A stretch of DNA of 64,000 bases from Alphaproteobacteria bacterium (lineage in GTDB: Bacteria; Pseudomonadota; Alphaproteobacteria; Rhizobiales; Xanthobacteraceae): contig VBAH01000089.1 of assembly GCA_005884685.1 (NCBI GenBank), positions 1 to 64,000 on the forward strand. The letters are read 5' to 3'. Below are positions 33,750-36,182 of the stretch, one piece after another (within the stretch, counting starts at the first letter, position 1; each line of letters begins with the position of its first letter). The position numbers were made by a program, and so were the translations under genes. The notes below the pieces were generated by a model that saw nothing but the letters and a program-made list of their open reading frames with translations, did not search any database and was not told the DNA's origin.

Positions 33750-33771
33750 TCGAGGTATCAGGTTGATAACG

Positions 33772-33802
33772 AGAACCCCGCCGCGAGGCGGGGTTCTTGT
33801 TT
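33772..33802 (+). terminator. rho-independent terminator after ctrA
   Basis: Perfect 11-bp stem AGAACCCCGCC / GGCGGGGTTCT closed by a GCGA tetraloop (GNRA type), followed by TGTTT. It stops ctrA transcription before the convergent PLD-like gene. Confidence 0.88.
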
Positions 33803-33822: not shown

Positions 33823-35943
33823 TCAGCGCTTCTTTGAGTGCTTCTTGACGACTTTCTTCTTCGCCTTTCTGGATGCTTTTTTCTTTGCGGCTTTTTTCTT
33901 TGTAGCCTTTTTCGCGGGCTTCTTTGCGGACTTTTTCTTCGCGCCCTTTTTGGCGGTTTTCTTCTTCGCTTTCTTTTTGGCCGCGGTCTTTTTCGCTGGC
34001 TTCGTGTTGATCCCACCCGATCCATCGCCTGATGACGCCGGCGCGCTGCTCGCAAGCTTCTGCTTCGGCGGCAGAGCGCCCGAACCGGACGTATCGCCCT
34101 TCGTCGCGGCCGAGAGCCAGAAGCGCAATTCGGGCGACTTCTCGTCCTTGCCGATGATGTAGCGCTCCTGCCAGGTGTCGTCCGGTTGCAGCGGCCGGCC
34201 GAAGACCTCCGGATGCTGCTTGAGCAGGAACCGGAAGGCGTAGTGGTCGTACAGGTCGAGCACGTGACACGCGTATGCCTCCGCGAGTCCGCGATGGCCG
34301 CGGATGATCAGCATGTTCTCATCGTTGTTGTGCGAGGCGCGAAAGCCGAGATTGTGCGAGCCCGTCACAACGGTGCAGTTGTCACTGAACGGGTCGATCA
34401 CCACGATCTTGTTGTGGATGATGGCAAAGCCGAATCTGGCGAGCTCTGCTTCCCATGCGCCGAAGGCATCCTTGTCGTCGATGGCGCCGGCCGGCACCGC
34501 GCGGAAGTCGGGCTTGGCCGACGGCAGCTTTGCCCCCTGCTTTTTTGGCTTGCCCGGCTCGCCGACGACCGTAACCGTCGCCGGCGGCTGTGCGCCGCCG
34601 TCGTCCTGGTCGGCGGCGCCGCCCTGATGCAGCGCGGCGGAGAAATTCGTGGCGCGCTGCGCGTTGGTGAGCGCGCCGCGCACGAACAGGTCGGGGTTCT
34701 TCGCAAGCGCCCTGCCCGCCGCATCGAGGATCGAGTTGTTGCCGGGATCGAATGCGAGGAACAGCACCGCCTGCTTCGCGCCGTCGATCAGGTCGAACAC
34801 CCGCTTCATGTCGTTCGGCACTTCCTTCGGCGGGCTTCTCAGCGTGTTGACGGTATTGGGCGAGAACATCGCCTCGATCGTCACGCCGCCGGGAAGCTTG
34901 ATCGGCGACTTGATCGCGTCGTCGTTGCCGGTGCGATTGAAGGTGCGCTGCGCCGGCGACTGCAATTTCGACTCGTCGCCGCCGGCCGCATCGACATCGG
35001 CCTTGATGGCATTCCAGACGGCGATATAGCGGCTCGCAACCGCGGGCGAGTTGATGATCAGCGCGTTGTTGGTCTGCGTGCAGAGCCCGGTGCTGGTCCA
35101 GTTGGTCGAGCCGGAAAGCACGGCGGCCGGGCTGCCGTTCTGGGTCAGCACCAGGAATTTGTTATGTGGAATGTCGCCCGCCTGCAGGATGCGGTCGATC
35201 ACGTTGACGCCGGCTTTCTTCAGGTTCGCGCGGTTTTCGGAGTCGGCGTCTTCAATCTCCGGGGTGGTCTTGGTCTTGGCGATCCGCTCATTGCCCAGAA
35301 TGATATTCCGGCTTTTCGGATCGCCATGGTCTGCCGCCTGCAAGCGGACCTCGAGGCCCTTCGGGTCGTTCAGCTCGTAAAGCGCGCCATGGATCGTGCC
35401 GCCGTCCTTGTCGGCGCGATCGAGCAACTCGGTCACGCCATCGGAAAGCTGGCCCATCAGGCGAATCCGGATGGGATCCTTCGGGTCCTGGATGTGCGGG
35501 GTCAGCGCGGGAACGCTCGGCTTGTTATTGAGCGCATGGCTCAACGCCTGCGTCGCCACGATGCCGCGATTGAAATACGCGCTGAACGGAGGACGCTTTT
35601 CCGTCAGCGTGATCTTATTGCTCAGCAGCGCATCGACGCCCTTGAGCGGCGTGAGCGTGCCCCCGGGCGTGCCGCCCATCGGCACGATGCGGTATTGGTA
35701 GGTGCCGCCGCGCTTTGCGAACAGGTCCTTCCACCAGAACTTCTGGATTGGCGCCTGCGAGGTATCGAGCTTCAGGCTCCTGTCCTGGCCTGCGAAACGC
35801 GCGAGCGCCGGCAGGATTGTTTCCTTGTTGCCGGCGTCGATGTCGATCTGGTGGACCGCAAAGCCGAGACAGCCGTCGAGATGCTCGTCGAAGGTCCAGG
35901 CGACGACGGCGATATCGTTATTGGAGAACGCAACGGCAGGCAT
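33823..35943 (-). CDS. phospholipase D-like protein with histone-H1-like lysine tail
   Basis: 706 residues. Two PLD repeats are visible. The first motif, near residue 260, is HNKFLVLT with Thr where HxKxxxxD needs Asp, followed by SGSTNWTSTG. The second, near 510, is intact: HNKIVVID, then TGSHNLGFRASHNNDEN. PLD-family enzymes use two such motifs to cleave phosphodiesters, so activity may be altered or rest on a dimer. The last 59 residues are a lysine/alanine tail (AAKKKAKKKTAKKGAKKK is a sample) with 32 Lys, like histone H1 or bacterial H1-like proteins, suggesting nucleic acid or anionic lipid binding. There is no signal peptide. ATG 35943 has GGGGGAAACC upstream. It is a single gene; function unknown. 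Confidence 0.85.
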   Translation of the reverse strand: MPAVAFSNNDIAVVAWTFDEHLDGCLGFAVHQIDIDAGNKETILPALARFAGQDRSLKLDTSQAPIQKFWWKDLFAKRGGTYQYRIVPMGGTPGGTLTPLKGVDALLSNKITLTEKRPPFSAYFNRGIVATQALSHALNNKPSVPALTPHIQDPKDPIRIRLMGQLSDGVTELLDRADKDGGTIHGALYELNDPKGLEVRLQAADHGDPKSRNIILGNERIAKTKTTPEIEDADSENRANLKKAGVNVIDRILQAGDIPHNKFLVLTQNGSPAAVLSGSTNWTSTGLCTQTNNALIINSPAVASRYIAVWNAIKADVDAAGGDESKLQSPAQRTFNRTGNDDAIKSPIKLPGGVTIEAMFSPNTVNTLRSPPKEVPNDMKRVFDLIDGAKQAVLFLAFDPGNNSILDAAGRALAKNPDLFVRGALTNAQRATNFSAALHQGGAADQDDGGAQPPATVTVVGEPGKPKKQGAKLPSAKPDFRAVPAGAIDDKDAFGAWEAELARFGFAIIHNKIVVIDPFSDNCTVVTGSHNLGFRASHNNDENMLIIRGHRGLAEAYACHVLDLYDHYAFRFLLKQHPEVFGRPLQPDDTWQERYIIGKDEKSPELRFWLSAATKGDTSGSGALPPKQKLASSAPASSGDGSGGINTKPAKKTAAKKKAKKKTAKKGAKKKSAKKPAKKATKKKAAKKKASRKAKKKVVKKHSKKR

Positions 35944-36182
35944 GGTTTCCCCCTGTCCAGCGGCGACGGCATCATTGGCCCTGCTGGTGGTAGCAGGAAT
36001 CCGCAGCGCTCTAAAGCTGTGAGGTCGATCGTCACAATTGCCAACCGGCGACTGACCGGCTTGTTCGCGCTCGACGGGGCGCTCATAGTTTCGCCGGAAT
36101 GACGCCCGCATAAGCGCCTCCGCGCGACGGGAACTCTCGCCTCCCCGCCCCGTTATCGCCCGTACGCGCACGTGCGGATGCA

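Follow-up and report, generated by a model that had tools for sequence, protein, structure and literature searches.

In the window, that is, the whole 64,000-nucleotide stretch of Xanthobacteraceae DNA analysed here, a gene of a soil bacterium encodes a phospholipase D (PLD)-type protein that keeps the catalytic residues of both half-sites and carries a histone-H1-like, lysine-rich tail. The initial annotation read it as a nuclease or phospholipase tethered to nucleic acid or membrane, and the most plausible form of this idea, with the tail found in 20 relatives and both half-sites intact, is a PLD-type enzyme that the tail would tether to a polyanion. We put at about even chances the narrower reading that it is a cytoplasmic PLD phosphodiesterase, somewhat more likely a nuclease than a lipase, held by its tail on the nucleoid (or on polyphosphate).

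Is the open reading frame real, and where does it start? It is encoded on the minus strand, opening with an ATG at 35943 and ending in a stop at 33823; the 706-aa frame is real, it is common to relatives, and its body is under purifying selection. A longer frame of 786 aa starting at TTG is unsupported, and the ATG is preferred because the homologues start at MPAVAFSNND; an AGGGGG also lies just before it. The N-terminus, MPAVAFSNNDIAVVAW, contains no signal peptide as judged by eye, in line with the initial annotation. That the gene stands alone between ctrA and the opg genes was also borne out. One flank is ctrA (NCBIfam CtrA, E 1e-127), which converges with the PLD gene; the other is an opgD-like frame of 524 aa, named by eye and matching no NCBIfam model, followed by mdoH/opgH. 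The features of the gene and its borders are as follows.

33823..35943, minus strand: coding sequence of 706 aa, comprising an FN3-like domain, a two-lobed PLD body, a disordered linker and a Lys-rich tail; start common to homologues; dN/dS 0.14-0.28 (body, window clade)
35949..35954, minus strand: Shine-Dalgarno-like AGGGGG, 5 nt ahead of the ATG, read from the sequence
33771..33798, no strand assigned: GC-rich inverted repeat in the gap where the ctrA and PLD genes converge, a possible shared terminator, read from the sequence and absent from the sites of the automatic scan

The Pfam model PF13091 (PLDc_2) matches the protein in two stretches with E 2.6e-16 and 60.1 bits against a curated cut-off of 27, and it was found in all 38 family members scanned, while no NCBIfam family covers the protein. 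The body had been described as two repeats, and an AlphaFold2 model built on 38 family sequences (m3ddd3c23b01d; mean pLDDT 82, pTM 0.86) gives it a two-lobed PLD fold. The profile score above the cut-off, the fold match of the model at Z 29 and two HxK...GSxN half-sites place the predicted protein in the PLD superfamily. The N-terminal domain was folded separately as residues 1-131 with a mean pLDDT of 91.6, and its best Foldseek matches are mostly fibronectin-III (FN3) domains, weak but consistent (E 4e-4 to 1e-2, TM about 0.5). The linker ahead of the tail, residues 617-647, has pLDDT below 50 in the model of the body, which was built without the tail.

35590..35943, minus strand: N-terminal beta-sandwich domain, residues 1-118, fibronectin-III-like (separate AlphaFold2 model and Foldseek)
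34984..35589, minus strand: PLD lobe 1, residues 119-320 (AlphaFold2 model; structural matches span residues 111-582)
34198..34896, minus strand: PLD lobe 2, residues 350-582 (AlphaFold2 model and structural matches)
34429..34623, minus strand: insert in lobe 2, residues 441-505, poorly conserved and modelled with low confidence (pLDDT below 50 over 441-477 and 488-505; gaps in most relatives)
35101..35166, minus strand: half-site 1, H260-x-K262...GSTN281, without Asp (T267); H260, K262 and N281 in 68/68
34351..34416, minus strand: half-site 2, H510-x-K512-xxxx-D517...GSHN531; H510, K512 and N531 in 68/68, D517 in 67/68

There is a question of concern, whether the first half-site is broken. 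The two motifs, HNKFLVLT at residues 260-267 and HNKIVVID at residues 510-517, are present as the initial annotation gave them, so that the canonical HxKxxxxD is found in the second motif and lacks its Asp in the first. The word degenerate, which was applied to the first, does not hold in a functional sense. In an alignment of 68 members, position 267 is Ser, Leu, Cys, Val, Gly, Thr or others and Asp in none, while every member keeps the catalytic His, Lys and Asn in both half-sites. The active site of human PLD3, whose structure is solved, consists of His201, Lys203, Asn218, His416, Lys418 and Asn432, its Asp208 and Glu423 lie about 20 A from the active site, and its HKE motif is an instance of superfamily membership without the canonical Asp (PMC10783504). 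Since the six active-site residues of PLD3 are kept here and the acidic ones lie far from the site, the missing Asp is no argument against catalysis. A pseudo-enzyme arising from a lost HKD Asp is ruled out, for the Asp is missing family-wide and the catalytic residues are invariant. The enzyme variant is thus real, conserved and uncharacterised, and it is not a broken HKD protein.

What does the enzyme act on? When the model was matched, over residues of about 116-578, to known structures by VIA-align, in which rows within 1 Z count as tied, the best were PLD4 (Z 29.1), 7e0m (titled phospholipase D; 29.0) and PLD3 (28.7), the PLD3 and PLD4 alignments covering about 340-350 residues, and further matches included vaccinia F13 (28.3), phosphatidylserine synthase (26.3) and PPK1 (22.8); by Foldseek, PLD3 matched with E 2e-13. 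With ties of this kind, nuclease and lipase are not told apart by the fold alone. Human and mouse PLD3 and PLD4, which are 5' exonucleases, resemble the window protein in the two-lobed fold (Z 28-29), in having both half-sites on one chain, in the six catalytic His/Lys/Asn residues and in the lack of the canonical Asp from one motif, where PLD3 has Glu, but identity is about 14%. PLD3 moreover resides in lysosomes and is synthesised as a type II membrane protein, whereas the N-terminus of the window protein is FN3-like and contains no hydrophobic segment that could serve as a membrane anchor. We know of no FN3-like N-domain and no Lys tail in PLD3 or PLD4.

The family profile, searched against solved sequences, ranks the nuclease Nuc first (E 1.5e-11), followed by PLD6/Zucchini (E 9e-11). 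These closest solved sequences share HxKxxxxD and GSxN with the window protein, but their chains carry a single half-site each and form dimers, while the window protein has both in one chain. The order of the profile matches gives a mild lean to a nucleic-acid substrate. The main competing reading, which we consider possible though less probable, is an enzyme acting on phospholipids, either a PLD hydrolase or a phosphatidyl transferase, with the polycationic tail lying on the anionic surface of the inner membrane and not on DNA. Two HxK sites per polypeptide are typical of lipid-acting PLDs and nucleases usually dimerise (PMC10783504), although PLD3 and PLD4 are nucleases with both sites on one chain. 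The fold matches include lipid-acting enzymes, namely phosphatidylserine synthase, Streptomyces PLD and 7e0m at Z 21-29, whereas the sequence profile puts the nucleases ahead. Tle1-like or patatin lipases are encoded near some relatives (L153, L165, L169, L161, L035 and L041), but genes for nucleases (S1/P1 and DNA/RNA non-specific endonuclease) lie near others, and the Lys/Ala/Pro repeats of the tail resemble nucleic-acid-binding tails of the H1 type. On balance we lean slightly towards nucleic acid and away from lipid as the substrate.

The tail itself is the second part of the architecture, and its reported size of 59 residues with 32 lysines was recounted and is correct.

33826..34002, minus strand: histone-H1-like tail at the C-terminus, residues 648-706; of its 59 residues 32 are Lys and 13 are Ala (composition count)

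Is it a peculiarity of one gene? Stretches of 40 residues near the C-terminus with at least 12 Lys occur in 19 of 73 family loci (two of these loci entered twice) versus 1 of 787 neighbouring proteins. The initial annotation had suggested looking for homologues with the same tail, and lysine extensions were found in 20 of 68 distinct rows, C-terminal in 17 and N-terminal in 3. The latter belong to one branch of distant own-family members (L155, L156 and L157) in which the lysine-rich stretch lies within the first ~80 residues rather than at the C-terminus. All of the extensions belong to own-family (Xanthobacteraceae) relatives, 20 of 41 against 0 of 27 elsewhere, with a Fisher p of 4e-6 that is inflated by near-copies counted more than once; the loci compared were chosen from ranked matches. 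On a tree of 39 rows, a single clade of C-tailed rows is rejected (p-AU 4e-46), and the well-supported branches force at least 5 changes of tail state, a count which is approximate because L158, with a weaker tail, was scored absent. The pattern may reflect repeated gain, repeated loss or recombination between relatives, and the tree fits each of them.

Several trivial explanations were rejected. A frameshift or other local artefact, the concern raised by the initial annotation, is ruled out, as the 20 tailed relatives come from several species, the extension sequences differ, and tails are found at either end. An accident of genome composition is likewise ruled out by the single neighbouring protein that passes the threshold and by the few other lysine-run genes that a pattern scan found in the own genome. 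The latter include a small tailed protein and an H1-like protein. A search of the own genome with the tail sequence returned only the self match, probably due to composition correction. On contig C37 of the same genome, near 93179, a small protein (L194) has a long C-terminal tail of the AKK type. Among the loci examined, the tail is a recurrent, lineage-specific feature and not a one-off or low-complexity accident. Homologues that mostly lack the tail and have a known biochemical role had been named as evidence against a tethered enzyme; 48 of the 68 do lack it, but no known biochemical role was found for any.

What would the tail bind? Its Lys/Ala-rich composition is that of the H1-like tails of PhaF and AlgP in Pseudomonas, which are disordered, rich in Lys, Ala and Pro, C-terminal and attached to an unrelated folded domain (PMC9239181). 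For these KPAA tails the same paper gives either DNA binding in vitro or a supposed role in tying granules to the nucleoid (PMC9239181). The two cases differ: in PhaF and AlgP the KPAA units repeat regularly and are attached to a helical domain that associates with granules, while the window tail consists mostly of AKK/KKPAKK runs on an enzyme. Resting on composition and that report, the parallel suggests tethering to the nucleoid; a Lys-rich tail could just as well attach to polyphosphate, RNA or anionic membranes. One further reading has the tail on polyphosphate granules and the PLD fold, which is common to PPK1, processing polyphosphate or a granule-bound polymer. The fold search does return PPK1 structures, at Z 20-23, but they rank below nucleases and lipases, and the six-residue pattern is of the phosphodiesterase type. 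AlgP, with its similar tail, is located on polyphosphate granules (PMC9239181), and lysine-rich stretches bind polyphosphate (PMC12077175); the neighbourhood in the window, however, has no link to polyphosphate. We regard a polyphosphate-processing enzyme as quite improbable, the least likely of the readings weighed here.

The distribution of the family bears on another alternative. Body homologues at about 25-75% identity occur in rhizobia, Variovorax, Sphingomonas, Undibacterium, Sulfitobacter and Hymenobacter. Most are annotated as phospholipase D-like domain proteins; entries under this name, defined by PLDc_2 only, have the same body over the full length, and most are without the lysine tail. 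At a profile E of 1e-20 or lower the family is found in 88 of 391 own-family, 41 of 397 order and 23 of 299 phylum genomes sampled, and the class-level sample gives 19 of 385 at E of 1e-10 or lower, several being only partial matches. It also occurs in 94 plasmid records, many of them rhizobial. A phage origin was rejected, since the phage records searched gave no match to the PLD gene. In some own-family species the ctrA site is without the PLD gene, ctrA lying beside opgD (L220), beside cheR (L224) or near opgD (L216), while in L130, L141 and L159 the PLD gene adjoins ctrA as in the window. Because the site is empty in some relatives and occupied in others, the PLD gene counts as accessory, though its address is partly conserved. 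Two Rhizobium copies come in two pieces: a close relative without tail (AC27/96, L003:5938-7817) falls into two frames, divided near residue 90, and the gene on a plasmid of Rhizobium beringeri (L041:6980-8958) is annotated as two overlapping ORFs, possibly through a frameshift.

Such a patchy spread, in 88/391 own-family genomes and on plasmids, would also suit an effector of anti-phage or interbacterial conflict, DrmC-like or Tle5-like, whose tail aids attack on DNA. DrmC models match 34 of 38 members weakly (best member 1.9e-12), but the score of the window protein is marginal, E 9e-4 over 48 residues in the region of the second motif only. Genes of the pYEATS, TIR-like, HEPN/Toprim, PtuA-like or AAA_21 types occur in some islands; on the other hand, outside local clades the family shares no recurring neighbour, and the window copy stands alone at an address where other copies of its clade also adjoin ctrA. 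With no match in phage either, we consider a conflict effector unlikely. As to partners, none of the DISARM proteins DrmA, DrmB or methylase is among the immediate neighbours in the window, and no DISARM protein is among the 25 commonest models listed for 148 neighbour proteins; no VgrG/PAAR or immunity partner of Tle5 is found among the window neighbours or the 25 neighbour families listed.

The neighbour genes of relatives, as called by a simple script, include DUF2278 adjacent in 4 loci and DUF2252 in 3, Tle1-like hydrolases near 4, S1/P1 nucleases near 2 and patatin in 2. In L039, L040, L164 and L181, DUF2278 lies beside divergent PLD members, within about 100 bp and on the same strand, and that of L181 carries a lamin-tail domain. 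L132:2990-11151 and L041:5632-13487 both combine DUF2252, a PLD gene and an AAA_21/AAA_15 ATPase; the two genomes are distant and their PLD subfamilies very different. A Mesorhizobium plasmid (L035:266-15300) carries pYEATS, patatin, a trypsin-nuclease fusion, the PLD gene, a HEPN/Toprim-associated gene and a TIR-like gene (by eye), and looks like a conflict island. No conserved operon or defence island was found; DUF2278, DUF2252, Tle1-like and S1/P1 nuclease genes recur only locally. The defence-island neighbours that the initial annotation proposed to look for give no consistent signal, and conflict-type genes near some plasmid or island copies are not enough to tie the window gene to defence.

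Taking the tethered phosphodiesterase as the preferred reading, the following scenario may be proposed. The enzyme would be cytoplasmic, with an FN3-like N-domain followed by both HxK half-sites on one polypeptide. The two half-sites would form one active site, in which one His is phosphorylated and the other acts as the acid, as proposed for Nuc. The tail would be an interchangeable polycation anchor on the nucleoid or polyphosphate, like those of PhaF and AlgP. With nucleic acid favoured over lipid as substrate, the protein would be a nucleoid-tethered accessory nuclease. The open-licence literature, searched also from the side of DUF2278/DUF2252 and of the nucleoid, gave no description of a PLD enzyme with a lysine tail and no published function for homologues of the family, in agreement with the initial annotation, which knew of no described system built in this way.

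What emerges is a widespread FN3-PLD family, uncharacterised and intact in its active site, and the new element is the recurrent, lineage-restricted H1-like tail. Three of its traits had escaped the initial annotation, namely the family-wide lack of Asp in the first motif, the FN3-like N-domain and the return of the tail in relatives. Because related enzymes differ in the position or presence of the tail, tail swaps are directly comparable among them, and enzymes with a C-terminal tail, an N-terminal tail or none offer a natural test of what H1-like tails do in bacteria. As a more tentative possibility, H1-like tails in the Bradyrhizobium family may be portable nucleoid anchors, repeatedly added at either end to an accessory PLD nuclease. 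If this is true, these proteins would be a previously undescribed class of chromosome-tethered phosphodiesterases.
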